Shown here: positions 18,335-32,279 of the stretch, piece by piece
Position numbering within the stretch: position 1 is the stretch's first letter
Layout of the letters: each line of letters opens with the position of its first letter
NCBI RefSeq assembly: GCF_004337705.1
Contig: NZ_SKBU01000012.1
Span: forward strand, 62,001-126,000
DNA from: Rubrobacter taiwanensis
GTDB taxonomy: Bacteria; Actinomycetota; Rubrobacteria; Rubrobacterales; Rubrobacteraceae
DNA: 64,000 bases
Reading direction: 5' to 3'
Notes under the pieces: model-generated
The model's database searches: none
What the model was told of the DNA's origin: nothing
What the model saw: only the letters and a program-made list of their open reading frames with translations
Position numbers and translations under genes: made by a program

Positions 18335-21166
18335 CTACCGCCTGCCGACCAGTACGAACGGGGCCCAGTAGTAGGGGTGGGGATGCCTGGCTTTGATCTC
18401 CAGCTGGGCCACCCTGAGCGCCTCGGCCCTGCCTAAGCCTTCCTGCAGGTGCCCGTACCAGCTCTGCATGAGCTCTGCAGTGGTCTCATCCTGGACCAGC
18501 CAGAGGCTGACCACTAGCGTCGTCGCTCCGGTTCCCAGGAAGGCCCGGGTGAGGCCCAAGATCTCGTCGCCTCCGATCACCTCGTTGCGTCCCGACTCGC
18601 AGGCGCTGAGGGTTACTAGCGCTCCTTCGAGGTTCAGGTTCATCGCATCCGCTGCGGTCAGCCAGCCGTCGTGCAGCTTCAGGGACGAGAACATGGGATT
18701 GTCGCTGCGGAAGAGACCGTGGCAGGCCAGGTGTAGCACCCCGCGTCCGGCAGAGCTGCTCTTGAAGGCTTCGATGGTCGCCTCCTTGTCCAGCAAGAGC
18801 TCCGAGTCCGGGAATATCCTCGCGACGGCCTTCGCCTCCGCCATCGTAGCCGGGATCGAGGGGTCGGAGAGCCCCAGCGCGAGTGCCCGGTTCGTGCTCT
18901 GCGGGACCCGCTCCTGACACAGGGCGTAGACCGTGGCGCTGGGCGCGTAAGAGATCTCAAACCGCTCCAGCAGGTATCTCTCTCCGTCGAAGAGGGCGTG
19001 GAAGGGTACTCGATGCAGGAGCCCGTGGGGTATGATCGCCAGCCTCCGTACTTCCTTATCTCGTTCCAGCAGTTCTTCGAGAGGGGCGAAGAGCACGCCG
19101 TAGAGCGCACCCAGTACCCGCCGGACGGAGCGGTGCATTACCTCCATGTGGCGTTCGGTGAATCCCTGCCCGGCCCGGAAACGATCCATCTGCACTTCGA
19201 AGCGCTGCAGAAGCTCCCGTACCTCGGCTACGGCGCCGAGGTTGCGGACGACCCGGAGATCTCCGGAGTCACTGATGAAGGCCAGGATTTCTTCCCCGAC
19301 TATGTGGTAAGCTGCCAGGAACTCGTCTGCCGGGAGCCGGTCCGGAGTCGTGTTCGGGGAAGCGGCGAAGGGGTCGGGCGAGGCGGTCGCGGCGGCCTGT
19401 ATCCGGAGGCGGTTTATCTCCGTCTCCAGTTCCGCGGCCCGGCTGCCGGGCTCCAGGATCTCTTCGCCGGTTCCTTCGAGCATCTGGTTGTATATGGCGT
19501 TCAGGTCTGCCTGGAGCTCCTGGATGCGGTGCTGTAGCTCCCCGCCGGTTGAGGGCTCTTTGCCGACTATTCCCGTGAGCAGGTCTACCAGCGCGCGAGA
19601 CTTCGCCCGCTCGGCTGCAGCGAAAGCTTCCCGGACGCTCTCTTGACCCCGCCGGGCCAGATGCACCCGCAGCAGCCCTTCGTAGGCAGCCAGTTTGTCT
19701 TTGAGGAAAGATGCGCGGATGGCCTCTTGGGTTACGGTCCCCCGCAGGTTCTCTATTTCATCCACGGCTGCCTGAAGCAGCTCTCTTGCTTCAGGCAGCC
19801 GTCTCTTTAGGAGATGCAGATTTCCGAGGCGTTCGTTTACCCGGTAGCGCAGGTTCGGTAATGCCAGGCTTTCGGCTATCTGCTTCGCTTCGAGCAGATG
19901 CCGCTCCGCTTCTTCTGGCCCGGTGAGCCGCAAGTCGGCCAGCCGGAGGCGGGCGTAGAAGTTCTGCACCGGCCAGTCACGGCCGGAGACGAGCTCCAGA
20001 GCCTCGCTCGCTTTCTGTAGGGCGGCTTCGTGGCGTCCGCGGGCTTCCAGCAGAGCTGCCTGCTCCAGCATCACGCCGGAGAGTAAGGGGAGGTTCCCGG
20101 CTTCGGAGAACAGGCTGGCGGCTTCAGCGAGCGTACTCTCGGCTTCTTCAAGGTTTGACCGGAAGGCCAGGGCTGATCCCAGGCCCCACAGTGCTCGGGC
20201 TCGCTCGTAGGACATGCCCGTCCTCTGAAGGGCTTCGCTGGCTTCCCGGTATGCCGCCAGGGCTTCCGAGTAAAGGTTGAGCGCCAGGTAGGCGTCTGCG
20301 GTGTCGCGGAGGAGCAGATGCCTGTCTGCGAGCGCTTCTATCGAGTCGAGCAGCCGGCGCGCTTCTTCTAGAGCGGAGAGACCATCTCTGTAGTTTCCCA
20401 GCCTTAGATGAGCCTCGCCCACGTTGTTGAGAGCTTTGGCGTACGACAGGGTGAGCCCCGCTTCGGCGAAAAAGTCGGCGGCGCTCTTGAAGGCGTTCAA
20501 AGCATCTCTGCTGCGTCCCAGATCCAGGAGTATAAGCCCCCGGTTGTTGCGGATTTCACCGAGCCGCTCGGTCATCCCCAGCTCTTGGTAGGCGCTTTCG
20601 GCAGAGGTGTAGGCTTCGAGCGCCTCTTCATAGCGCCCCATATACTCGTAGCAGCCGCCTATATTCTGGAGGGTGAGGGCGGTAAGCAGGCTTACATCCC
20701 GCTCCTCTACGTGAGGCCCCTCGATTCCTTTGAGAGCTTCCAGCACCTCATGTCCTATCCCGAGCGCCTCTCTGTAGTGCCCCAGTTCGAGCAGAACCGC
20801 CGCCTGGCCGACGTTGGTCCGGAGCGTCTCCAGTACCCTGCCCAGCCTCAGGTAGCCTTCTTGAGCTGTTCTGGCTAGCCGGAGAGCCTCTTCGAATCTG
20901 CCGTTTATGAAGTTGGTCTCTACGCAGAGGTAGATTGCCCGCGGCTCGATGGCGGGCGCGCCGGCCACTTCTGCCAGCCCGGCACAGGCTTCGGCCAGGC
21001 GCCGGGCGCGGCCGGGGTCGCTGTGCACCAGCTCTTCGGCGGCGTCGAGCAGGCGGGAGAGCCCGGGCTCGTTCAAAAGACCGCGGGAGCGCAGGCAGTC
21101 TTCGCGCCCGGGGGCGGGGAGGGCGAGCAGATTCTCTATCAGGTCTGAGTCGGCATCTGCCGCCAT
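18335..21166 (-). CDS. TPR-CHAT protein (caspase-like protease domain with tetratricopeptide repeats)
   Basis: A 943-residue cytoplasmic protein. Residues about 75-480 form a long tandem TPR array (units such as LNNVGEAHLRLGNYRDGLSAL and LQNIGGCYEYMGRYEEALEAY). A helical linker follows, then a CHAT domain from about 640 to the end. The caspase-type dyad is intact: H816 in HLACHG and C856 in LSACESG. CHAT domains are proteases that cleave partner proteins when the TPR part senses a signal, as in the CRISPR-linked TPR-CHAT protease and separase relatives. ATG 21166 is 14 bp after the anti-sigma-like gene, so these are one operon. Likely substrates include the neighbouring anti-sigma-like protein or the protease precursor; that is inference. 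Confidence 0.9.
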   Translation of the reverse strand: MAADADSDLIENLLALPAPGREDCLRSRGLLNEPGLSRLLDAAEELVHSDPGRARRLAEACAGLAEVAGAPAIEPRAIYLCVETNFINGRFEEALRLARTAQEGYLRLGRVLETLRTNVGQAAVLLELGHYREALGIGHEVLEALKGIEGPHVEERDVSLLTALTLQNIGGCYEYMGRYEEALEAYTSAESAYQELGMTERLGEIRNNRGLILLDLGRSRDALNAFKSAADFFAEAGLTLSYAKALNNVGEAHLRLGNYRDGLSALEEARRLLDSIEALADRHLLLRDTADAYLALNLYSEALAAYREASEALQRTGMSYERARALWGLGSALAFRSNLEEAESTLAEAASLFSEAGNLPLLSGVMLEQAALLEARGRHEAALQKASEALELVSGRDWPVQNFYARLRLADLRLTGPEEAERHLLEAKQIAESLALPNLRYRVNERLGNLHLLKRRLPEARELLQAAVDEIENLRGTVTQEAIRASFLKDKLAAYEGLLRVHLARRGQESVREAFAAAERAKSRALVDLLTGIVGKEPSTGGELQHRIQELQADLNAIYNQMLEGTGEEILEPGSRAAELETEINRLRIQAAATASPDPFAASPNTTPDRLPADEFLAAYHIVGEEILAFISDSGDLRVVRNLGAVAEVRELLQRFEVQMDRFRAGQGFTERHMEVMHRSVRRVLGALYGVLFAPLEELLERDKEVRRLAIIPHGLLHRVPFHALFDGERYLLERFEISYAPSATVYALCQERVPQSTNRALALGLSDPSIPATMAEAKAVARIFPDSELLLDKEATIEAFKSSSAGRGVLHLACHGLFRSDNPMFSSLKLHDGWLTAADAMNLNLEGALVTLSACESGRNEVIGGDEILGLTRAFLGTGATTLVVSLWLVQDETTAELMQSWYGHLQEGLGRAEALRVAQLEIKARHPHPYYWAPFVLVGRR

Positions 21167-21180
21167 TCCACGATTTTACT

Positions 21181-21798
21181 CTATGCCCGGGCTTCTATGG
21201 GGGGGATCAGGATCTCGTACTCCCCGTTGCTGAGCACCAGCTCGTAGGTGTCGGGCTCCAGCTCCCGGAAGGCGAACTCGCCCAGATCGTCGGCGATGGT
21301 TATGCCGGCCTCCTTCGAGCCGCGCAGGAGCTGGACGATGAAGCCTTCGGGCTCCACGTCGCCGGTGGGGAAGATCTGGCCGCTTAGGTCCAGCCGCCGG
21401 TTCTGCCGCTGCTGGATGTTTACGGCCACGTCTGCCAGGTCGGTGGCGTAGACGAGCTGCTGCCGGCTCTCCTGAGCCCCGCCCGACCGCACTCCGGCGA
21501 GCACGGATTGACGGCCGCTGTCGAAGGTGAGGCTGGCGAGCATCCGCTCCAGCAGACCCGGCTTCCGCGCTCGGCTCTCGAAGCGGCGGGCCAGGGTTTC
21601 CCGCACCTCCGGTGGGGGAGTGTCGAAGACGGTGCCGGCGCTAATCTCCCGGAACTCCCGAAGCCAGTCTACCTCGGAGCGGACCTCCGGACCGGCGCTC
21701 TCGACGTAGCGGGCGACGGCTGCCGCTTCGTCCTCGGGAAGCCGGCCTTCGAGCCAGTCCAGGATCTTCTCGAAGTCGGGTGTGTTCGGCCTCGGCAT
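21181..21798 (-). CDS. Anti-sigma-factor-like protein without zinc ligands, with C-terminal beta domain
   Basis: A 205-residue protein between the sigma factor and the CHAT gene. Residues 1-60 (FEKILDWLEGRLPEDEAAAV) look like the helical N-terminal domain of anti-sigma factors, but the Cys/His zinc ligands are absent. The C-terminal 110 residues (LSGQIFPTGDVEPEGFIVQL, FAFRELEPDTYELVL) read as a beta-sandwich of the carboxypeptidase-regulatory or SpaA-like type. There is no membrane segment. ATG 21798 follows GGGAG, and the longer open frame only shadows the sigma gene. Such proteins often accompany sigma/CHAT clusters. Binding to the sigma factor is inferred from order. Confidence 0.7.
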   Translation of the reverse strand: MPRPNTPDFEKILDWLEGRLPEDEAAAVARYVESAGPEVRSEVDWLREFREISAGTVFDTPPPEVRETLARRFESRARKPGLLERMLASLTFDSGRQSVLAGVRSGGAQESRQQLVYATDLADVAVNIQQRQNRRLDLSGQIFPTGDVEPEGFIVQLLRGSKEAGITIADDLGEFAFRELEPDTYELVLSNGEYEILIPPIEARA

Positions 21799-21896
21799 GG
21801 TCTCTCTTCTCCCTAAATATACCCGAAGGGTTTGCTGGAACTCACTAGTTAAGATGTCGCGGCAAGAGCCCTGAAATACACCTGGCAAGGGGGCAC

Positions 21897-22445
21897 TCAG
21901 CCGAGCTTCGCCTTGAGCTGCTTCAAGCAGCGCGCCCGCGTCGGGCCGATGCTCCCGACGGGCATCCCCAGCCTCTCGGCCACCTTGGCGTAGGAGGGTT
22001 CCTCTGGGGCGAAGTAGAGGGCGAGCAGCAGCTCGCGGCAGCGGGTGTTGAGCTGCGAGAGGCCCTGGTCCAGCCACTCGACCAGCTCCCAGCGCTCCAT
22101 GCTGCGGGCGCTGGAGTCGTCGGGCAGCGGGCTCTCCGGCAAGTCTCCCTCTGCTCCGGTCGTCTCCCGGCGTTTGCGCTCCATCAGCCGCCAGGTGTGC
22201 CGGCGGGCGACCACCGCGAGCCACGGCCCCAGGCGGCTGTCGTCGGCGATTCTGTCTATGCTCTGGAGGAGGATGGAGAAGGTGAGCTGCGTTATATCGG
22301 CGGCGTCCTCGCGCGAGAGGCCGTAGTTGAGCGGGATGGAGAAGACCAGCCGCTCGTAGCGCTTGAACAGCCGGTCCCACGCCCGCCGGTCGCCCCGGCG
22401 GCAGGCCGAGATCAGGGCCGCGTCTGAGGTGTCTCTTCTCAGCAT
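21897..22445 (-). CDS. ECF-type sigma-70 family RNA polymerase sigma factor
   Basis: A 182-residue group 4 sigma factor. Region 2 (AWDRLFKRYERLVFSIPLNYGLSREDAADITQLTF) and region 4 (LNTRCRELLLALYFAPEEPS, then YAKVAERLGMPVGSIGPTRA as the helix-turn-helix) are both clear. An ATG at 22445 and a GTG at 22451 are both possible behind GGAG. It heads the anti-sigma-like/CHAT gene run, which is probably its regulon. A palindrome, AACCG-ATC-CGGTT at 22493-22505, lies 48 bp upstream. Confidence 0.9.
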   Translation of the reverse strand: MLRRDTSDAALISACRRGDRRAWDRLFKRYERLVFSIPLNYGLSREDAADITQLTFSILLQSIDRIADDSRLGPWLAVVARRHTWRLMERKRRETTGAEGDLPESPLPDDSSARSMERWELVEWLDQGLSQLNTRCRELLLALYFAPEEPSYAKVAERLGMPVGSIGPTRARCLKQLKAKLG

Positions 22446-22492
22446 TTGCACCGATCTCCGCCCCGGGAGTCGCTGTTAGAGTTCCCCTCCAG

Positions 22493-22535: not shown

Positions 22536-23225
22536 TTACTCGCTCCCGGGGGAGGCGGCCGGGTCGAAGCGGTATCCCGCCCCGCGGATGGTGGTTATAA
22601 GGGAGGGTTCTCCCGGCCGGTCTATCTTGCGCCGCAGGTAGCGGACGTAGACGTCTACTATGTTGGACCCGGGGTCGAAGGAGTAGTCCCAGATCGCTGA
22701 GAGCAGCTGTTGGCGGGAGAGGACCTGCCGCGGGTGGCGTGCGAAGTACTCCAGCAGGGCGAACTCCCGGCTGGAGAGCTCCACTCTCTTCTCCCCCCGC
22801 CACACCCGGCGCGAGAGGAGGTCTATCCTCAGATCTCCCAGCTCCAGCCGGGAGGATCTGGGCTGGTCCGCGCGGCGGGTGAGGGCGTGGATGCGGGCCA
22901 GCAGCTCCTCGAAGGCGAACGGCTTGGTCAGGTAGTCGTCGGCGCCGGAGTTGAGGGCGCTCACCTTGTTCTGCAGGTCGTCGCGGGCGGTCAGCATGAG
23001 CACGGGCAACTCGGGCCGCGTCTGCCGGATGCGCCGCAAGACCTCGTGTCCGTCCATCTCCGGCAGCGAGATGTCCAGCAGTACGAACTCCACCGCCTCG
23101 TCGGCGGCCAGCGCAGCGCCGTCTCGGCCGTTGTCCGCGCTGAGGACCTGGTAGCCGTGCGCCGCGAGGCCGCGCTCCAGCATCCGGACTATCGGGGCCT
23201 CATCTTCGACGACCAGAATTCTCAT
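22536..23225 (-). CDS. OmpR-family response regulator
   Basis: A 229-residue regulator with an N-terminal receiver (phosphoacceptor D51 in FVLLDISLP; K in YLTKPF) and a C-terminal winged helix (SSREFALLEYFARHP, NIVDVYVRYLRRKID, IRGAGYRF). ATG 23225 follows GGAG, with TATACT only 14 bases upstream (23240-23245), so the leader is very short. It is divergent from the sensor kinase, its likely partner. Targets might include the downstream sigma factor gene, which runs in the same direction 90 bp on. Confidence 0.94.
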   Translation of the reverse strand: MRILVVEDEAPIVRMLERGLAAHGYQVLSADNGRDGAALAADEAVEFVLLDISLPEMDGHEVLRRIRQTRPELPVLMLTARDDLQNKVSALNSGADDYLTKPFAFEELLARIHALTRRADQPRSSRLELGDLRIDLLSRRVWRGEKRVELSSREFALLEYFARHPRQVLSRQQLLSAIWDYSFDPGSNIVDVYVRYLRRKIDRPGEPSLITTIRGAGYRFDPAASPGSE

Positions 23226-23239
23226 AGCTCCGGTCACAA

Positions 23240-23247
23240 AGTATAAT
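23240..23247. promoter_or_regulatory. Overlapping divergent -10 boxes
   Basis: The eight bases AGTATAAT read as TATAAT on the plus strand (23242-23247, towards the sensor kinase) and as TATACT on the minus strand (23240-23245, towards the response regulator). Only one direction could be occupied by RNA polymerase at a time, so the two genes would compete for initiation. The -35 regions are weak (TTCTCA on the plus strand). Confidence 0.5.
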
Positions 23248-23302
23248 TGATCTCCCGGCTGCGAGAACGGCACGCCCGCGCAAATACTCTGGAGGGCGGT
23301 AG

Positions 23303-24739
23303 GTGGAACAACCCAAGCGAATACGCTCCCAGCCGCTGCAGATCGCCGTCTCCGCCGTGGGCGGGCTTCTGATCTTTATCGCGGTGGTAGGGGTGGTGGG
23401 CCTGGTTCTCAACTACCGGATCACGGGGGTGACCCAGGAGGCGCTCACCTACGACGTGGAGCTGGAGGATCACGGCGACGACCTGCGGGTGGCCGTTCTC
23501 GACGTCCGCCACTACCAGCGCAACCTCTACTTCGAGGCTCTAACGGGACAGGGGATCTCCAGGACCAGGGTGGCAGATTTCGAGGGTGCGTACGCCACCT
23601 TGCTTCAGGAGATAGACGAGCTGGAGGAGCTCGGCATTCGAGACGAAGACGTGCCCCAACCGGAGGATTTCCGGCGGGTGGCCCGCGAGTACTACGAGGG
23701 GTTCCGCCCAGCGATAGACCTTGAGGCGTCTGATCACAGGGCCTTCCTCGACGCTCACGAAGAGGCTCTGGTGAGGATAGACGAGCTCGAAGCCGCTGCG
23801 CGGCAGATAGACAAGCTGGGCGAGCAGCGGTCGGCGGCGGCGCTGAGCAACGTGCAGCGTACGGCGCAGAACGCGGAGTTCCTGATGCTGGCGGTGCTCG
23901 GAGGGCTTGTCCTGGTCGGGGCGCTGCTGGCGTATGCGGCGTTGCGCGTGGTCGCCGAACTGCGCCGCCTCTACGACAGCGAACAGCGGGCGGCCGAGGC
24001 GCTGGCCCGCGCGAACCAGGCCAAGGCGGACTTCATCGCCGACGCCTCGCACGAGCTGAGGACGCCGCTCACCGTGCTGCACGGGAACGCCCAGATCGGT
24101 CTGCAGCTCGAGGACCGCCCCGAGCAGCGCGAGATCTTCGAGGACATCCTCCGGGAGTCCACCCGGATGTCCCGGCTGGTCGAGGACCTGCTCTTCCTGG
24201 CCCGTTCCGACTCGGCCTCACCGCCGCTGCACAGGGAGCTCGTGGAGGTGCGGTCCTTTCTCTTCGGGCTGGCGGCGCGGGCCGCGGCGCTGGCGCAGGA
24301 GCGCGGCGTCCCCTTCAGCAGGGAGCTCGGCGGCTACGGGACCCTGAATGCAGACGTCGCCCGCATCGAGCAGGCCGTCTTGATCTTCGTGGACAACGCC
24401 GCCAAATACTGCCCGCCCGGGACCCCGGTGAGACTCGTCTCGGAGACCGCGGGCGGCGAGTTGCGCATCACGGTCGAGGACCGGGGACCGGGGATCCCGG
24501 AGGAGGACCTCTCCCGCATCTTCGAGCGCTTCTACCGGGTGGACAAGACCCGGGCGCGCAGGCAGGGCGGTTCCGGGCTCGGGCTCTCCATCGCCCGGAC
24601 CATAGCCGAGGCGCATGGCGGCCGGGTCGAGGCGGAGAGCCGGGTGGGCGAGGGGACGAAGATGACCCTCGCCGTGCCGCTCGCCGCTGGCACCGTCCCG
24701 GAGAGGGACCGCGAAGCGGCGATGGGTGAGGGACGGTGA
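23303..24739 (+). CDS. Membrane sensor histidine kinase
   Basis: A 478-residue kinase. The first membrane helix is at about residues 14-36 and the second at about 192-213. Between them is a helical CHASE3-like extracytoplasmic sensor (residues about 37-190). HisKA follows with the H-box DASHELRTPL. HATPase motifs are DNAAKY (N-box), EDRGPGIP (G1) and GGSGLGLSIA (G2). GTG 23303 is preceded by GGAGGG. Its stop overlaps the start of a lone receiver by four bases, and an OmpR regulator is divergent, so it may phosphorylate either one. Confidence 0.94.
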   Translation: MEQPKRIRSQPLQIAVSAVGGLLIFIAVVGVVGLVLNYRITGVTQEALTYDVELEDHGDDLRVAVLDVRHYQRNLYFEALTGQGISRTRVADFEGAYATLLQEIDELEELGIRDEDVPQPEDFRRVAREYYEGFRPAIDLEASDHRAFLDAHEEALVRIDELEAAARQIDKLGEQRSAAALSNVQRTAQNAEFLMLAVLGGLVLVGALLAYAALRVVAELRRLYDSEQRAAEALARANQAKADFIADASHELRTPLTVLHGNAQIGLQLEDRPEQREIFEDILRESTRMSRLVEDLLFLARSDSASPPLHRELVEVRSFLFGLAARAAALAQERGVPFSRELGGYGTLNADVARIEQAVLIFVDNAAKYCPPGTPVRLVSETAGGELRITVEDRGPGIPEEDLSRIFERFYRVDKTRARRQGGSGLGLSIARTIAEAHGGRVEAESRVGEGTKMTLAVPLAAGTVPERDREAAMGEGR

Positions 24740-25098
24740 GCCGGGTCCTGGTGATAGAGGACGATCCCGGTATCGCTCGGCTGCTGAAGCGAGGCCTGGC
24801 GCTCGAAGGCATAGAGGTGGATATCGCCGAGGACGGGTTCGCCGGCCGCGAGCTGTGGGAGCGGGGCGGTTTCGATCTCGTTATCCTGGACGTGATGCTC
24901 CCCGGCGTGGACGGCCTGAGCCTGTGCGCCGAACGCCGGACGGCCGGAGACGAGGTACCCATCATCCTGCTCACCGCCCGGGATGAGGAGGAGATTGCGC
25001 ACCGGGCACGGGAGGCCGGGATCACGGCCTGTATCGGCAAGCCGTTCTCGTTCCCGGAGCTGCTGGAGCGGGTTACCGCTCTTCTGAAGGCCGGTTAG
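24736..25098 (+). CDS. Single-domain response regulator (receiver only)
   Basis: A 120-residue CheY-like protein: acidic pocket E8-D9-D10, phosphoacceptor D52 (VILDVMLPG), T80 and K102 (GKPF). It has no output domain and is normal receiver length, so it is not truncated. It is translationally coupled to the kinase (GTGA overlap). Its 3-prime end overlaps by 26 bp the convergent gene that encodes an MFS-HisKA fusion. It could carry phosphate from the kinase to that phosphoacceptor, or act by protein binding. Confidence 0.93.
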   Translation: MSRVLVIEDDPGIARLLKRGLALEGIEVDIAEDGFAGRELWERGGFDLVILDVMLPGVDGLSLCAERRTAGDEVPIILLTARDEEEIAHRAREAGITACIGKPFSFPELLERVTALLKAG

Positions 25099-26707
25099 GT
25101 GGTTGCAGCAGACCCTCTATACGCTCCACCTCCTCCACGACCGCCTCTGCGCTGCGGCGGCGCTCTTCGGGCGGGGTGTCTTCCCGGCTCAGCACCAGCT
25201 CTACCTCGCCCCGGATCACGGTCACCGGCCCGCGCAGGTCGTGGGCCAGATTACGCACCCGCTCTGTGCAGGAGCGCTCCAGCGTCCGGAGTTCGGCGGC
25301 GAGGACGGCCCCGCCCGCCAGCGCGCCGGCGGCCGCTCCGAGGAGGACGAGGGCCCCGCCCAGAACCAGCTCTCCGGTCGCGATCTCAATCTCTTCCCGG
25401 GATGCGAGATCCTCGAGCCAGAGCGCGCCGGCTGCGGCGAGCCCGAGCACCGGCGGGATCAGGCAGGCCGTTACGAGCTTCATTCCGGCGAGCCGGCGGC
25501 CCCGCAGCTCGCCGAAGACTCGCAGGGCGGCTATCTCGGCGACCGCTGCTATGACGATGCGCGCTCCGAAGAGCGCGAAGACACCGCCGGTCTGCCACAG
25601 CAGGCCGGCGAGCGCCGGGCCCAGAGCCTCGCCGGCCGTCTGCGAGGTGTCCAGAGCGCCGAGGCGCCGCCCACTCCGCCGGGGATCTCTGGCCGCTATC
25701 TCCGCCACCGCCGAGGCCCAGGCGGGCCGGAAGGCGGCCTTGCCGGAATCGTCCACCGAGCGGGCGGCGGCGAACCCGAGGAAGGTGGGGCTGATCAGGT
25801 ACAGCACTGAGGAGCCGATGTTGGCTGCAGAGCGCCAGGCTATACCGATCAGACGCCCCTTGCGGTCCACGAGCATCCCGAAGACCGGCCCGGAGACCAG
25901 GAACACGGCCGCCGAGAGGCTGTAGATTGCCCCGGCCTGGACCTCGCTCAGACCTGCGTACTCGGTGGCCAGGATGGGGAAGAGTCCATGCACCATGTAG
26001 GCGCTGGCGGCCACGAGCATCCCCACCGATGCCGGGCCGCCCAGCTCCCGCAGCAGGGAGAGGGTCCCACCCTTGACCGGCACGTCCTCCCGCGCCTCGG
26101 CCGACCCCTCCAGATCTTCCGGTGCGCTCTTCCTGGCCACCTCCTCGTCGGAGACCTCGCGCAGACCGAGCCAGGCGGCGGCCGTGGGGAGTACGGAGAG
26201 GGCGAGCACGGTCAGAAAGAGCGTCTGGTAGCCGGCCGCCGCGATGATGAGCCCGGCCAGGGCGGCCCCGGCGACGCCGCCGACGTGCTTGGCGCTGGAG
26301 TACCAGCTGTAAACGGTCCCGACGCGGGCCTGCGCCTCGCGCGCGATTACGCCGAGCGAGGCCACATCCCGGCCGGCGGCGCTCGCTCCCTGCAGCAGCC
26401 GCACGAGCAGCAGGCCCAGGAACCCGCCCGCGGCGAGCAGGATGGCCGCGGCCGCCACCCGGCAGAACGCCCCGAGCATGTAGACGGCACGGACCCCTAT
26501 CCTGTCCGAGAGCCAGCCGGCGGCCGGTTTGAGCGGGAGCACGAAGACCGTGCGCAGGCTGATGAGGATCCCCACCTCCGCGACCGAGAGCCCGAGGGCT
26601 ATTGCGTACAGCGGCAGTCCGAAGCTGACCATCCCGAACGCCAGCCGCCCGAGCAGCCCCTCGGCGACGACCGTGGCGAGCGCGACCCGGGGGTTGCGGG
26701 ATCTCAC
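25073..26707 (-). CDS. MFS transporter fused to a C-terminal HisKA phosphoacceptor domain
   Basis: A 544-residue protein. Residues 1-410 form a 12-helix MFS carrier with a loop 2-3 motif (GWLSDRIGVRAVYMLG). Two further membrane helices (about 413-430 and 442-465) lead to a C-terminal cytoplasmic segment. That segment carries a histidine-kinase H-box, NLAHDLRGPVTVI, with H489, followed by the second HisKA helix (SAEAVVEEVERIEGLL). The protein ends at 544; no HATPase domain follows, and the DNA beyond is the convergent receiver gene. A carrier-receptor that is phosphorylated or dephosphorylated in trans is the best reading. It is the last gene of the ATP-grasp operon; ATG 26707 overlaps the previous stop by four bases. 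Confidence 0.85.
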   Translation of the reverse strand: MRSRNPRVALATVVAEGLLGRLAFGMVSFGLPLYAIALGLSVAEVGILISLRTVFVLPLKPAAGWLSDRIGVRAVYMLGAFCRVAAAAILLAAGGFLGLLLVRLLQGASAAGRDVASLGVIAREAQARVGTVYSWYSSAKHVGGVAGAALAGLIIAAAGYQTLFLTVLALSVLPTAAAWLGLREVSDEEVARKSAPEDLEGSAEAREDVPVKGGTLSLLRELGGPASVGMLVAASAYMVHGLFPILATEYAGLSEVQAGAIYSLSAAVFLVSGPVFGMLVDRKGRLIGIAWRSAANIGSSVLYLISPTFLGFAAARSVDDSGKAAFRPAWASAVAEIAARDPRRSGRRLGALDTSQTAGEALGPALAGLLWQTGGVFALFGARIVIAAVAEIAALRVFGELRGRRLAGMKLVTACLIPPVLGLAAAGALWLEDLASREEIEIATGELVLGGALVLLGAAAGALAGGAVLAAELRTLERSCTERVRNLAHDLRGPVTVIRGEVELVLSREDTPPEERRRSAEAVVEEVERIEGLLQPPNRPSEER

Positions 26708-27540
26708 GGCAGCGCTCCCTCTATCTCGGCCAGCAGGACCGGGACCGCCTCCGGGAAACCCCGGTATCCTGGGAACGGGTTGGCGTCTATGATGAACGGC
26801 TGCCCGCTCTCGAAGCGCAGGTCCACGCCGAAGAGCCGGAGACCCAGAGCCTCTCCGGCGGCGAGCACGACCTCTTGCGTGCCGCCGCTCAGCTCCACCG
26901 GCTCTATCTCGTCCGCCGCGTAGCTGGCGGGGGTGAATCTCTTGGTGCCGGCGAAGATGCGCCCGCCGGCCACATACGCCTTCACGTCGGGCTCATCGCC
27001 CCCGATCCGACGCTGCACCAGCCGTGTTCCATCATCCACGATGCAGGAGCCGGCCGGCATCTTCGTCCCGGCCGGCTCCCGGAGTGCGGACTTGAGGTCC
27101 GGGTGCGCCGCTACGCCCCTTCCGTGCACCCCGCGGACCGGCTTGACGATCCAGCCGCCGGGGGAGTCCGGGATTCGGCCGTCGGATCCCGGCACGAAGA
27201 GATGTGTCTCGGGGACCGGCAGGCCCGCGGCCGCCAGGCGGGCGATCGTGGCCGCCTTGTCGTGGGCCCGGAGCGTGAACCGCGCGCCGTTCAGGAAGCG
27301 GGTGCCGGAGGCTTCTGCAACCACGGCCCGGGAGAGGGCGAGCGTCGTTGCCGACTTGAGCAGCGCGAGGTCCGGGCGGCGCTCTTCCCGCGGGTCCGCG
27401 AGCTCGTGCTCCGGAACCCGGACGGTGGCGCGCGCTCCGGCGGCCTCCAGCCGGTCGAGCAGCGCCCGCATCACGGGGTTGACGGCCGCAGCTCCGTTTC
27501 GGGCCTCGACCCAGAGCTCGATTCGCCGCCCCCGCAGCAT
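26704..27540 (-). CDS. RimK-like ATP-grasp ligase (third of three)
   Basis: A 278-residue ATP-grasp protein. The layout is an N-terminal preATP-grasp region, NGARFTLRAHDKAATIARLA (RimK-type linker), a nucleotide-binding lysine and glycine loop WIVKPVRGVHGRGVAA, and metal ligands near the end in FIIDANPFPGYRG (D-x-N). Family members join a carboxylate to an amine or amino acid using ATP; a few phosphorylate polyols. It shares the terminal N-x-FPGY motif with its two neighbours, so all three are paralogues. ATG 27540 overlaps the previous stop by one base. The substrate is unknown. Confidence 0.85.
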   Translation of the reverse strand: MLRGRRIELWVEARNGAAAVNPVMRALLDRLEAAGARATVRVPEHELADPREERRPDLALLKSATTLALSRAVVAEASGTRFLNGARFTLRAHDKAATIARLAAAGLPVPETHLFVPGSDGRIPDSPGGWIVKPVRGVHGRGVAAHPDLKSALREPAGTKMPAGSCIVDDGTRLVQRRIGGDEPDVKAYVAGGRIFAGTKRFTPASYAADEIEPVELSGGTQEVVLAAGEALGLRLFGVDLRFESGQPFIIDANPFPGYRGFPEAVPVLLAEIEGALP

Positions 27541-28721
27541 CAGAGCGCCGCCTCCTCCGCGGCGCGCTCGTGGTAGCTTCGGCAGATAAGCCGGGCCAGC
27601 TCGTCCTGCGGGGCCAGGGTGCTCACGGTGGAGAGCACCTCGGCCGGGCCCAGCAGCTCCAGCTCCCGCTGGAGGTTCACGGCCTGCGGGTCGGATGGAT
27701 CGGCGTATGAGAGGGCGGCGGCCGCAGCGGTCGCGAGCGCGGAAGGCTCAATGCCGGCGGCCCGGCAGGCGATGGCGGGACCGATCAGCCGGTCGTCAGC
27801 GGCCAGCTTGCGCCGGGGTTCCCGCGCCACCCGCACTACGGGATCGGCCAGGGCTGGATCGGTGTAGCGGTCCAGGATCCAGCCCGGCGGGCGGGACGGA
27901 ACGGGAACGGGCCTGCAGTATATCTCAAGGTATGCCTCGAAGGCCCGCCGGGCCTCGGCCACTATCTCGCTCACGGCAGCCCGGATTCCGGGGCGGCTCA
28001 TGGCCTCGTGCAGCGTCCGGCATCCGGCGTGCCAGCCCAGATAGGCTGCGGCCGCGTGGCCGGCGTTGAAGATCCAGAGCTTCTCGATTATGCGGTCGTC
28101 GAACGCGCGCACCGGAGACAGGCCGGGGATCGAGCCGTCGAGCGGCGGGACGCCGGGGACGAGCGAGGCGGCGTCCACGTAGCACTCCTCCACGGCGTCC
28201 GCCTCGAAGCGGATGCCATCTTCCGCCACCGCGCGGCGGGAGACGGCGCGCCAGACGGCCGCGCCGCCGATCCCGAGCCGGACCCCGATCTCGCCGGCGA
28301 GCTGCGGGTGGGCTTCCAGCAGGCCGAGGGTCAGGAGCTCCGGGGCGCGCCGGTGGTTCTCGAAGGTGATCACGTTCGCCGGAGCTGAGGACTCCTCCAG
28401 CCGTTCGCCGAGCAGCGGGGCGAGCATCCGGCCCGCCGCCGCCAGCGACGACGGCCCGACCGAGGTGGCGAAGAGATCCGCGCCGGCGGCTGCGGCGAGC
28501 AGTTCCGGGTCCTCGGGCGAGATCGCCCGTACTCTGCCGACCCAGCGGTCCGGCGCGCCCGTAACGCGGAGCCACAGGCCGCCGCCCGCGTTTATAGCGT
28601 CCCGCACCTCTCGGTTGCGGCAGATCAGGAGCGTTTCCCAGCCCGCCGCGCTCAGCAGCGGGGCTACGAAGCCGCCGGCCACCCGGCCCGCACCGGCGAT
28701 CAGACACCGGGGCGCGCTCAC
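27540..28721 (-). CDS. Mannitol-1-phosphate 5-dehydrogenase-like polyol dehydrogenase
   Basis: A 393-residue NAD(P)-dependent enzyme of the long-chain secondary-alcohol dehydrogenase family. A Rossmann glycine loop (IAGAGRVAGGFVAPLL) is at residues 8-23. The catalytic K-x4-N-x2-H set is intact at K214, N219 and H222 (EKLWIFNAGH). The ENHRRAPELL segment also fits MtlD. Substrate could be a hexitol phosphate, a uronate or another polyol. GTG 28721 overlaps the previous stop by four bases. It lies between ATP-grasp genes, which is not a usual mtlD setting; no PTS genes are present. Confidence 0.82.
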   Translation of the reverse strand: MSAPRCLIAGAGRVAGGFVAPLLSAAGWETLLICRNREVRDAINAGGGLWLRVTGAPDRWVGRVRAISPEDPELLAAAAGADLFATSVGPSSLAAAGRMLAPLLGERLEESSAPANVITFENHRRAPELLTLGLLEAHPQLAGEIGVRLGIGGAAVWRAVSRRAVAEDGIRFEADAVEECYVDAASLVPGVPPLDGSIPGLSPVRAFDDRIIEKLWIFNAGHAAAAYLGWHAGCRTLHEAMSRPGIRAAVSEIVAEARRAFEAYLEIYCRPVPVPSRPPGWILDRYTDPALADPVVRVAREPRRKLAADDRLIGPAIACRAAGIEPSALATAAAAALSYADPSDPQAVNLQRELELLGPAEVLSTVSTLAPQDELARLICRSYHERAAEEAAL

Positions 28722-29536
28722 CGGAGCCCCTCCGCTACCCGCGAGATCTCGGCCGCCAGCGCCTCCGCGGCGCCCTCCGCGCCCTTGTAGCCGGGGAAGG
28801 CGTTCACGTCTACCAGCCACCACCCGGCGCTGCTGCGGACGAAGTCGCAGCCGAAGCAGGTGAGGCCGAGCAGCTTCCCGGCCGCTCTCGCAGCTGCGGC
28901 GGCCTCTTCCGGCAGTTCGGCGGGGCGACCCAGCTTCTCCTCGTAGGTCTCCGCCGGGAACGGCCGCTCCACGGCGGCCATCCACTCCCCGGCCGCGAAC
29001 ACCTTCAGGTCGTCTCCGGCGTGCTCTACCCACTCCATGATCAGGTACGGCCCCGCCGGGAGACGGGGGAGCAGCTCCGGCAGTTCTCCTGCCGCGGCCC
29101 TCCACAGGCCCCGCCCGCGCGAGCCCCGGGCGGCCTTCACCACGAGCGGCCGGCCGGCAAGCTCCTCCAGACCGGGCGGCGTCCCCGATCCCAGCCACGC
29201 CAGGCGAGCGGGCGCGATCGGGAGCCCCGCTCGCTGCAAGATCGCGGCGCTCGCCAGCCTGTCCTGCGCCAGCCGGGTGGCCTCGCTGCCGTTGAGGCTC
29301 GGGATGCCCCAGGCTTCAACTGCTGCAGCCAGGTGTAGGGCGGCGGCCGATCCGGACTTCAGCACGACCATATCCCAGGGCGGGCGGACATCCAGCCGGT
29401 AGGGTCCGGTCTCGGCGTGGACGAGGCTCACTTCGGCGCCCGCCTCCCGCAGCATGGGTATCAGGCGGTCTGAGATTGCGCCCCGGTGGCCGGGAGGGTG
29501 GCGGCGCTCGATGAAACCCACGCGCAGGCCGTTCAT
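28718..29536 (-). CDS. RimK-like ATP-grasp ligase (second of three)
   Basis: A 272-residue ATP-grasp protein. It contains LNGSEATRLAQDRLASAAIL, the nucleotide-binding VVKAARGSRGRGLWRA, and the metal-binding terminal motif WLVDVNAFPGYKG (D-x-N). FDFVRS-like GCDFVRSSAG precedes it, as in other RimK-type ligases. ATG 29536 overlaps the preceding stop (ATGA), with GAGGAAG upstream. Its substrate is unknown, but it is most similar in layout to its two paralogues in the same operon. Confidence 0.85.
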   Translation of the reverse strand: MNGLRVGFIERRHPPGHRGAISDRLIPMLREAGAEVSLVHAETGPYRLDVRPPWDMVVLKSGSAAALHLAAAVEAWGIPSLNGSEATRLAQDRLASAAILQRAGLPIAPARLAWLGSGTPPGLEELAGRPLVVKAARGSRGRGLWRAAAGELPELLPRLPAGPYLIMEWVEHAGDDLKVFAAGEWMAAVERPFPAETYEEKLGRPAELPEEAAAAARAAGKLLGLTCFGCDFVRSSAGWWLVDVNAFPGYKGAEGAAEALAAEISRVAEGLR

Positions 29537-30432
29537 GAGGGCTTCCTCACGATGGAGTGCATGCCGCTCCGGCCCGCCCGGCGGGCGACGGCCTCTATCT
29601 GCACCAGGGCGAGGACGTGGCGGGCGATGGCTTCCCCCGCCCTCGGGACCGCCGAGTAGGTGGGGAAATCGTTGACCTCGATTACGTACGGACCGTCCGG
29701 GGTCATCGCCACGTCCACGCCCCAGAGCTCCAGCTTGCAGGCCCGCCCGCACGTCAGCGCGATGTCCCGCAGCCGGGCGTCGAGCTCGACGATTTCGGCC
29801 CCCTTCGTCTCCTTGAAGACGGCGGGACCCGGCTCTGGGAAGCTGACCGGCGAGGGCTTGCGCACGGCCCAGGTCTGAGAGCCCACCCCGTAGAGCTTGA
29901 GATCCCAGCCGTCGGTCTCCAGATACTCCTGTGCCAGGTACAGAGACCGGCTGCGCTCCAGCGGCGGCAGGAGGTCCACGTCCTCCGGCCGGGTCAAAAG
30001 GGCGAGCCCCCGTGCTCCGTCGCCGTCGAACGGTTTGACGACCAGCGGGAACCGCTTGCGGGGCACGCTGCGGAAGACCGCGGCGTCGGCGGCGAACCAG
30101 GTCTTCGGCAGCGGCAGGCCGTGCTCCAGCAGCACGGCCTGCATGGCGATCTTGTTCCGTACAAGCTCTATGGCACGAGGGCTGTTGATCGCCACCACCC
30201 CCAGCGCTGCGGCTGCGGCGAGCAGTCCGAGCCCGGCGAGGTCGCGCCCCCGGCTCAAGACCGCGTCCCAGGGCGGGGCTTCGGCCGGTATGTCGAAGAG
30301 CCGGTTCGAGTCCGGTACGACGAGCGGGACCTCGCACCCGGCTGCTTCAAGAGCTGCCCGGGCTTCGCGGAGAGCCCGGTTTTTCAGGTGCCGCCGCTCG
30401 GCCAGGATCGCTACCGTCGGACCGGCCTTCAC
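29533..30432 (-). CDS. RimK-like ATP-grasp ligase (first of three)
   Basis: A 299-residue ATP-grasp protein closest of the three to RimK/LysX types. It has NSPRAIELVRNKIAMQAVLL followed by GLPLPKTW, the nucleotide-binding VVKPFDGDGARGLALL, and metal ligands E-x-N in YVIEVNDFPTYSAVP. No LysW-type carrier protein gene is nearby, so lysine or arginine biosynthesis is unlikely. The GTG start at 30432 overlaps the receiver stop by four bases. Confidence 0.87.
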   Translation of the reverse strand: MKAGPTVAILAERRHLKNRALREARAALEAAGCEVPLVVPDSNRLFDIPAEAPPWDAVLSRGRDLAGLGLLAAAAALGVVAINSPRAIELVRNKIAMQAVLLEHGLPLPKTWFAADAAVFRSVPRKRFPLVVKPFDGDGARGLALLTRPEDVDLLPPLERSRSLYLAQEYLETDGWDLKLYGVGSQTWAVRKPSPVSFPEPGPAVFKETKGAEIVELDARLRDIALTCGRACKLELWGVDVAMTPDGPYVIEVNDFPTYSAVPRAGEAIARHVLALVQIEAVARRAGRSGMHSIVRKPS

Positions 30433-30830
30433 GGCTTACGCCCCGCCTGGGCCCCGGAACGGCGCAGCAGCGCCCGTACCCGGGCCTCGAACTCCAGGAA
30501 GCTGAACGGCTTGGTCAGGTAGTCGTCGGCGCCCAGATCCAGTCCCCGCGCCTTGTCCACGTCGGAGTCGCGGCCGCTCAGAAGCATCACCGGTATGTCG
30601 CTGGACTCCCGGATCCGGCGCAACACCTCCCAGCCGGAGACGTCCGGCATGACCACGTCCAGGATTACGAGATCCGGCTCCGAATCTCCAAGGCGCGAGA
30701 GACCCTCCAGCCCCGAGGTGGCGGTCTGCACCTCCAGGCCGTTCTTGCTGAGGGCGAGCCGGGCCAGCGCCAGCAGCCGCTCGTCGTCTATCACCAGGAC
30801 TCGCTGCCCGCCGGGATTATGGGGATCCAT
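30429..30830 (-). CDS. Single-domain response regulator (receiver only), first gene of the ATP-grasp operon
   Basis: A 133-residue receiver with acidic pair D15-D16, phosphoacceptor D58 (VILDVVMP) and K108 (YLTKPFSF). It has only a short basic tail and no output domain. ATG 30830 has GGGAGGT just upstream (the frame also permits a start six bases earlier). It heads a six-gene overlapping operon that ends with the MFS-HisKA fusion, which makes the two a natural phosphotransfer pair. Confidence 0.92.
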   Translation of the reverse strand: MDPHNPGGQRVLVIDDERLLALARLALSKNGLEVQTATSGLEGLSRLGDSEPDLVILDVVMPDVSGWEVLRRIRESSDIPVMLLSGRDSDVDKARGLDLGADDYLTKPFSFLEFEARVRALLRRSGAQAGRKP

Positions 30831-31148
30831 CGGCAACCTCCCGTGGATGCCCCGGCGGGTGGAAGCGGGTGCTCACCCCGGAGCACGTCTCGAACCTGCT
30901 GCCCATCTTCACCGCCTCCATGGTCTTCGCGCTTTTAACCTGCATTTAACAAATGCGCGATTTCGGGTTTGTGATACACCGGCCGGGCGGATTTTTGCAT
31001 CCCGGGGCGGTTCCGGTTAACACAGATTTAATTCAGGGTTTACGTTGATGAAACTAAATCCGGAATCCTATGCCTTATCATCCGGCTGGTGAAGCGGCAC
31101 GCGTGTCCTCAAGGGTTTTGAGTTGTCTCTGAGAAAGGAGCTGGCGGG
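30831..31148. promoter_or_regulatory. Divergent control region with two sets of Pho-box-like repeats
   Basis: This 318-bp region separates the ATP-grasp operon from pstS. Two TTTAAC repeats 11 bp apart lie at 30934-30951. Three more repeats at exact 11-bp period lie at 31017-31044 (TTAACA, TTAATT, TTTACG). Period-11 TT(A/T)ACA-type repeats are the classical PhoP/PhoB recognition pattern. The second set is correctly placed to activate pstS, 105-130 bp before its start. The first set is nearer the receiver gene (about 105 bp) and could act on it. Positions 30860-30949 also read on the plus strand as a 29-codon open tail that may be gene debris. Confidence 0.7.
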
Positions 31149-32279
31149 TTGAGTCGGATTGCGCGGTGGAGGTTGCTGGCCGCCGGGCTGGCTTTGTCGC
31201 TGTTCGTTGTGGCCTGTGGTCCCACGGTGGAGGAGCAGGCCGGAAGGGAGGGGCAGCCGGACGGCGGCGAGGCTCAGAGCGGCGATGTGGAGCCGGCCCG
31301 GAGCATAGACGGGGCCGGGGCCACCTTTCCCGCTCCGCTCTACAGCGAGGTCTTCTCGGCGCTCGCCGAGCAGGAGGGCATCCAGGTAAATTACCAGTCC
31401 ATCGGCTCCGGGGGTGGCATCGAGCAGTTCACCAACCGCACGGTGGACTTCGGGGCCTCGGACGCGCCGATGACCGACGAGCAGATCCAGCAGGCCGGCG
31501 GCGATGTGCTGCACGTGGCCACGGTCGGTGGCGCGGTGGTGCCGACCTACAACCTCCCTGGGGTCGAGGAGCTGAACCTGACGGGCGAGGTACTGGCGGA
31601 CATCTTTCTGGGCAACGTCACGCGGTGGAACGATCCGGCGATAGCGGAGCTCAACCCGGATGCGGACCTGCCGGACGAGCCGATCCAGGTCGTCCACCGT
31701 TCCGACGGCTCGGGGACCACGTTCATCTTCGTGGAGTACCTCTCGGCGGTGAGTGAGGAGTGGGCTGATGAGGTCGGTTCCGGCACCGAGGTTGCCTGGC
31801 CGACGGGCAGCGGGGCTTCGGGCAACGAGGGTGTTGCGGCCCAGGTCTCGCAGACGCCGTACTCCATCGGCTACAACGAGCTCGCCTACGCTACGGAGAA
31901 CGACATCCCGTACGCCCGGCTCGCGGACGATCCGGAAGGGCCGTTCGTGGAGGCCAACATAGACACGGCGAGCGCGGCGATCGCAGCCGCCGAGGTCCCG
32001 GATGACCTGCGGGTCTCCATCTCCGGCCTGAACGTCACCGAGGGGCCGGAGGGCCAGGAGGCGTACCCGATCACGGGCCTGACCTGGCTGCTCATCCGGC
32101 AGGAGATGGACGATCTGGCGACCTGCAAGGCCGTGGCCCAGGCGGCCTGGTTCGCCACGCACGAGGGCCAGGAGTTCGCTCCGCCGGACTACGTACCGAT
32201 CGGCGGCCGGACCCTGGAGATCGGCGAGGAGTTTATTCGCAGCATGGAGGCTCAGGGACAGCCGTGCTACGAGGAGTAA
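31149..32279 (+). CDS. pstS: Phosphate ABC transporter substrate-binding lipoprotein PstS
   Basis: A 376-residue phosphate-binding protein. The signal peptide ends in a lipobox with C23 (LFVVACGP). The PstS signatures are IDGAGATFPAPLYSE, YQSIGSGGGIEQFT, FGASDAPMTD and VHRSDGSGTTFIFVEYL, which holds phosphate ligands. The TTG at 31149 follows AAAGGAG with eight bases of spacing. It is the first gene of pstSCAB-phoU and is preceded by Pho-box-like repeats. A hairpin separates it from pstC. Confidence 0.96.
   Translation: MSRIARWRLLAAGLALSLFVVACGPTVEEQAGREGQPDGGEAQSGDVEPARSIDGAGATFPAPLYSEVFSALAEQEGIQVNYQSIGSGGGIEQFTNRTVDFGASDAPMTDEQIQQAGGDVLHVATVGGAVVPTYNLPGVEELNLTGEVLADIFLGNVTRWNDPAIAELNPDADLPDEPIQVVHRSDGSGTTFIFVEYLSAVSEEWADEVGSGTEVAWPTGSGASGNEGVAAQVSQTPYSIGYNELAYATENDIPYARLADDPEGPFVEANIDTASAAIAAAEVPDDLRVSISGLNVTEGPEGQEAYPITGLTWLLIRQEMDDLATCKAVAQAAWFATHEGQEFAPPDYVPIGGRTLEIGEEFIRSMEAQGQPCYEE

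Follow-up and report, generated by a model that had tools for sequence, protein, structure and literature searches.

An MFS carrier that ends in a HisKA (DHp) domain, with no HATPase domain, is encoded in the 64,000-nucleotide stretch of Rubrobacter taiwanensis DNA analysed here (the window; about 70% G+C). This protein, MFS-DHp, is the last product of an operon of ATP-grasp ligase genes and lies beside two-component genes (Table 1), which suggests, from gene content and order, that export is wired to the neighbouring signalling pathway. While proteins with HisKA only are already known as a class, the MFS partner appears to be new, with two orthologues and a coherent gene neighbourhood behind it. 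The reading favoured here, tentatively and with slightly less than even confidence, is that MFS-DHp is a membrane-tethered histidine phosphotransfer station on the exporter of the ATP-grasp cluster, served by the neighbouring kinase.

Table 1. Features of the MFS-DHp locus, in positions of the window
Feature	Position	Strand	Evidence
Single-domain receiver REC1, first operon gene	30429..30836	-	PF00072, E 8.6e-26
ATP-grasp ligase 1 (RimK-like)	29533..30432	-	Pfam RimK, E 3.6e-10
ATP-grasp ligase 2 (RimK-like)	28718..29557	-	Pfam RimK, E 3.9e-7
Mannitol-1-phosphate-dehydrogenase-like oxidoreductase	27540..28721	-	Mannitol_dh_C 5.5e-21, Mannitol_dh 2.2e-9
ATP-grasp ligase 3	26704..27540	-	rimK_fam, E 1.1e-14
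MFS-DHp: MFS exporter (probable) with C-terminal DHp (HisKA), without HATPase	25073..26707	-	Pfam MFS_1 and HisKA; G030 orthologue
12-helix MFS core, residues 6-402	25502..26692	-	AlphaFold2 model; Foldseek
Two extra membrane helices, residues 408-474	25286..25486	-	Hydropathy; model helices 408-435, 444-507
HisKA/DHp hairpin, residues 484-535	25103..25258	-	PF00512 match 484-534; model and fold match
Codon of putative phosphoacceptor H489	25241..25243	-	In RNLAHDLRGPVTVIRG; HDLRG
Single-domain receiver REC2, convergent to MFS-DHp	24736..25098	+	PF00072, E 2.9e-27
Complete membrane histidine kinase, HisKA and HATPase_c	23303..24739	+	Pfam; overlaps REC2
OmpR-family response regulator, divergent from kinase	22536..23273	-	Response_reg and Trans_reg_C

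Domain structure and authenticity of the HisKA tail

The MFS-DHp gene starts with GTG and codes for 544 amino acids. The protein is an MFS transporter by its MFS_1 domain (E 5.3e-38 in Pfam) and its two six-helix halves, and in the AlphaFold2 model these are followed by helices at residues 408-435, 444-507 and 513-534. The helix at 444-507 extends out of the membrane to become the first DHp helix, with that at 513-534 forming the second. The closest folds to the MFS core in Foldseek are the drug/monoamine:H+ antiporters NorA, MdfA and VMAT. In a Pfam search with the whole protein, residues 484-534 matched HisKA (PF00512) over positions 6-54 of the 66-position profile (E 4.7e-9). The score of 36.6 bits exceeds the gathering threshold of 26.9, and the tail alone gave an E-value of 6.4e-10. 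The second DHp helix, which ends at profile position 54 of 66, is about ten residues shorter than in an ordinary HisKA, and the chain ends about 10 residues past the DHp domain. The pLDDT of the hairpin is about 73-84, and about 90 in a 17-sequence AlphaFold2 model. The best fold matches of the tail model are all solved DHp domains, with high Foldseek probabilities and with E-values that are modest because the domain is short, and its sequence matches in the PDB are the HK853-type and KinB kinases. The position of H489 is invariant across a 17-sequence DHp alignment; its H-box has an acidic residue at H+1 and G instead of T/N at H+4.

No HATPase family matched MFS-DHp at E<=1 in Pfam. The HATPase_c domain that a sensor histidine kinase carries in the same chain is missing here, the nearest HATPase being that of the separate kinase at 23303. 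By eye, no obvious HATPase remnant is present in the three minus-strand frames from the stop codon back to 24301. Loss of the ATPase through a frameshift or an assembly error was rejected on this ground and because an orthologue in a second genome, G030, is the same protein with the same end, H-box and gene order. These results bear out the preliminary description, which had been made from the sequence alone. The twelve carrier helices, two extra helices and C-terminal HisKA domain with H489 that it proposed agree with Pfam, the model and hydropathy. The HATPase domain is indeed absent before the stop codon, and the convergent REC2 gene downstream and the identical end of the G030 orthologue speak against its having been simply frame-shifted off.

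The preliminary description had also named a HisKA score no better than that of a random coiled coil as grounds for dismissing the domain. An independent profile, built from the 19 other HisKA domains of the window genome and G030 with the fusion proteins left out, scored the window protein at 38.3 bits and the G030 orthologue at 27.6 bits (27.7 bits in Pfam), against a best score of 15.1 bits in 40,000 shuffles of the tails of both proteins. Chance resemblance of a coiled coil was thus rejected and, as judged from its sequence, the HisKA domain of MFS-DHp is genuine. A census with pairing read from coordinates counted 9 and 13 HisKA domains in the window genome and G030, respectively. One domain in each genome lacks an HATPase, namely that of MFS-DHp or its orthologue, and all others have an HATPase just downstream; lone HATPases were counted elsewhere in the window genome.

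The operon, its orthologue and its relatives

The six operon genes code for REC1, two ATP-grasp ligases, the mannitol-dehydrogenase-like enzyme, a third ATP-grasp ligase and MFS-DHp, in this order, and each overlaps the next by 1-25 bp. The stop of the third ATP-grasp gene overlaps the start of MFS-DHp by 4 bp, and the 3' end of MFS-DHp overlaps REC2 by 26 bp. Both REC1 and REC2 consist of a receiver only, with the acidic residues, the phosphorylatable Asp, the Ser/Thr and the Lys all retained. The OmpR-family regulator is a candidate for the DNA-binding output of the pathway. The REC1 end of the operon adjoins a reading frame (31149-32279, + strand) for what by eye is a PstS-like phosphate-binding protein sequence with a lipoprotein-like start. 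Also beside the operon, at 18335-22451, are genes for a TPR-CHAT protein, a sigma factor and possibly an anti-sigma factor. The same position in an Acidimicrobiia MAG (L034, 2-2387) holds relatives of the TPR protein (32% identical in the TPR part) and of the sigma factor (52% identical).

Further copies of the fusion were sought in the family, which here equals the class (39 genomes), in a phylum sample of 396 genomes, in the classes of G396 (395), G143 (24) and G254 (66), and in contig and plasmid scans, through which other phyla were covered for close relatives only. Across these scans the only DHp-bearing copy besides that of the window is that of G030, a member of another genus, so that the homologue search proposed at the outset recovered one full-length orthologue (539 residues, 64% identical) with the His retained within HDLRG and the same end point. 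Downstream of the MFS-DHp gene, G030 has the same convergent single-domain receiver and complete kinase genes as the window; REC2 is 65%, the kinase 51% and REC1 76% identical between the two. In the MAG assembly of G030, the ATP-grasp gene that comes first in the operon is split over two frames (L047, 1942-2837).

At a synonymous distance near 0.9 between the two MFS-DHp genes, the Nei-Gojobori dN/dS is 0.37 and 0.16 for the MFS halves, 0.35 for the extra helices and 0.44 for the linker and DHp; residues 403-474, which hold the extra helices, are 46% identical. The H-box helix is 75% identical with a dN/dS of 0.19, and by this measure the constraint on it is like that on the MFS core, while the remainder of the tail is less constrained. 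The H-box Pro is replaced by Gln in G030, and the Gly at H+4 and the acidic residue at H+1 are common to both proteins.

The same operon is found in G396, the Acidimicrobiia MAG of L034, where the MFS protein is 60% identical and without DHp, a complete membrane kinase of its own is encoded between the second ATP-grasp gene and the dehydrogenase gene, and the REC1 counterpart, 70% identical, has the same place. The MFS protein of G696 (39% identical) adjoins an ATP-grasp gene and a dehydrogenase fragment and has no tail, and the cluster MFS of G143 is similarly tail-less. G254 contains two cluster copies, in which the MFS protein ends in a soluble tail of another kind, about 140-200 residues long and unmatched in Pfam up to E 10 (L109, 7339-9231; L110, 8117-9793). 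By eye these tails resemble a degenerate ABC ATPase without Walker A, an identity that is not claimed here. Two-component genes occur inside the cluster in G143, G396 and one G254 copy, and the first G254 copy (L109) has a regulator, kinase and single-domain receiver trio oriented as in the window. The cluster is recurrent in actinobacteria (26704-30836 in the window; L034, L047, L050, L109, L110 and L111), with two-component genes in most copies. Besides the MFS carrier it codes for a mannitol-1-phosphate-dehydrogenase-like enzyme and for RimK-like ATP-grasp enzymes, of which there are up to three. The literature search returned no published description of this ATP-grasp, dehydrogenase and MFS combination.

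The presence of an MFS protein in all these copies suggests that it is the transporter of the cluster. By its nearest modelled folds (NorA, MdfA and VMAT) it is probably an exporter, and its substrate is probably the operon product. Since distant copies have no DHp domain or an unrelated tail, the DHp appears to be a lineage-specific graft on the cluster exporter. It may have been added in the line leading to the window and G030 or lost outside that line, and its occurrence in only two of seven copies makes gain the simpler reading. Relatives without a tail, encoded in the same operon, have the appearance of ordinary exporters. This favours a DHp added to an exporter that already worked over one that belongs to a dedicated sensor, and makes the earlier suggestion of a receptor doubtful. 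In a FastTree tree of DHp domains, MFS-DHp groups with the G396 operon kinase at a local support of 0.95. Pairwise z-scores, however, place this kinase low in both rankings and favour ordinary kinases, including the neighbouring 23303 kinase, and the grouping was taken as long-branch attraction.

Proposed phosphotransfer and alternative roles of the tail

Under the favoured phosphotransfer reading, the exporter of the ATP-grasp biosynthetic cluster would have gained a membrane helix pair and a DHp at its tail, and a phosphoryl group made by the complete kinase at 23303-24739 would reach H489. Lacking an ATPase, MFS-DHp would have to obtain the phosphoryl group from outside, and the separate complete kinase and the receivers beside it make phosphorylation of H489 by another kinase plausible. 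The donor route might be a relay from the kinase through REC2 to MFS-DHp and on to REC1, in the manner in which Spo0F charges Spo0B, or the donor might be the ATPase domain of the 23303 kinase, acting directly in trans. H489 would then hand the phosphoryl group to REC1, the obvious acceptor because it would be co-expressed from the operon of MFS-DHp, and the state of the exporter and the signalling of the cluster would thereby be linked. We infer phosphorylation at H489, its donor, acceptor and direction, and the relevance of the transport state, with putative partners assigned by gene position.

In HisKA domains, the acidic residue beside the His is required for kinase activity and a Thr/Asn for phosphatase activity (Willett and Kirby, PMC3510030). 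The retained acidic residue and the Gly at H+4 thus predict a DHp that would take and pass on the phosphoryl group and would dephosphorylate poorly. The intact, output-less REC1 and REC2 fit the expectation for relay or docking partners, and the halves of EnvZ function in trans (PMC3591291). Phosphotransfer is further favoured by the conservation of H489 and the constraint on its helix, by the position of MFS-DHp as the sole HisKA protein without HATPase in either genome, by the overlapping operon with REC1 at its head and MFS-DHp at its end, and by the G396 operon, in which the MFS protein has no DHp and a complete kinase is encoded. It is disfavoured by the occurrence of the fusion in only two sequences, the short helix 2, the change of Pro to Gln in G030 and the pace of evolution of the DHp with its linker and of the extra helices, which is faster than that of the greater part of the MFS core. 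A relay in which the transporter acts as the histidine phosphotransferase (kinase 23303, REC2, H489, REC1), with the export state gating phosphate flow or phosphate gating export, is considered unlikely; were it true, MFS-DHp would be the first transceptor to serve as a relay member and not as a kinase.

Alternatively, MFS-DHp may be a transceptor whose kinase is split, comparable to CbrA or Ks-Amt5 divided into two proteins. The MFS part would respond to its substrate or to the flux through it, and a separate ATPase domain, that of the 23303 kinase in a heterodimer or that of an unlinked HATPase protein, would phosphorylate the DHp directly. Transporter-kinase fusions report conformational state (Ks-Amt5, PMC5764959; CbrA, PMC13022988), split kinases function in vitro and in Rhodobacter CheA3/CheA4 (PMC3591291), and the acidic residue next to H489, required for phosphorylation by an ATPase domain, is present. 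The cluster, however, has no lone HATPase gene and the tail-less relatives suggest a plain exporter and not a sensor, and this arrangement is considered rather unlikely. The tail may also be a remnant of a kinase that was fused to the exporter and lost its ATPase, leaving a passive dimerisation element or scaffold. The short helix 2, the Gln of G030 and the rapid evolution of the DHp and extra helices apply here also, together with the loss of the phosphatase residue and the fact that relatives manage without the DHp. Two genera separated by a synonymous distance near 0.9 have kept the reading frame and the His with its flanks, and the H-box helix is constrained as strongly as the MFS core, which renders a remnant quite unlikely. 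About as unlikely, given that phosphotransfer is the normal role of DHp domains, is that signals run into the exporter through the DHp and not out of it, with a phosphorylated single-domain receiver docking on the tail, or phosphorylating it, and thereby switching export on or off. Such a role would account for REC1 and REC2, which without an output domain must act by binding, and for the variation of the soluble tail among lineages (absent, DHp or of an unrelated type), which a swappable regulatory tail would be expected to show.

Comparison with known systems

HisKA proteins without HATPase are a minor class in SMART (1,556 of 42,417, or 3.66%; PMC3591291). Few of these more than 1,000 proteins without a catalytic domain have a proposed partner. 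The preliminary description had considered a carrier with only the phosphoacceptor to be undescribed, which is too broad as regards HisKA without HATPase but stands for the MFS combination, as neither an MFS carrier with DHp alone nor an MFS-kinase fusion is described in the open-access full texts searched. In the case of MFS-DHp, about 8 kb of DNA hold a candidate kinase, two receivers without output domain and the genes for a candidate biosynthetic product, so that the full circuit could be rebuilt in vitro. If true, a product exporter wired directly into phosphotransfer would provide a route to sense product leaving the cell. Similarly to the HisKA-only and split kinases (CheA3/CheA4, PMC3591291), MFS-DHp has a phosphoacceptor without a catalytic domain and is likely trans-phosphorylated. 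It differs from them in its fusion to an MFS carrier, in the absence of the H+4 phosphatase residue and in having no ATPase-only partner among the cluster genes.

Spo0B, ChpT and PhyT are established kinase-derived phosphotransferases (PMC5898713, PMC3433190). They use for phosphotransfer a DHp-type hairpin like that of MFS-DHp, and the partner in the Spo0B and PhyT systems is a single-domain receiver, as are the putative partners here. ChpT and PhyT, and also Spo0B, keep a degenerate ATPase-like C-terminal domain, whereas MFS-DHp has none and is tethered to a transporter. Complete kinases are found fused to transporters of the SLC5 (CbrA, CrbS) and Amt (Ks-Amt5) types (PMC13022988, PMC7096432, PMC5764959). 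As in MFS-DHp, the transporter is followed by the DHp in one chain, but it has another fold and the kinase is complete with its ATPase. CbrA additionally has STAC and PAS domains, and the SLC5-STAC arrangement of the CbrA type is not that of MFS-DHp, whose transporter is MFS_1 and which has no HATPase. UhpC, the MFS sensor of UhpABC, is like MFS-DHp an MFS protein tied to two-component signalling; it has no kinase part and acts through the separate kinase UhpB. The DHA1-type transporters NorA, MdfA and VMAT share with the modelled MFS-DHp the MFS fold and probable proton-coupled export, from which MFS-DHp is distinguished by its two extra helices and DHp tail.
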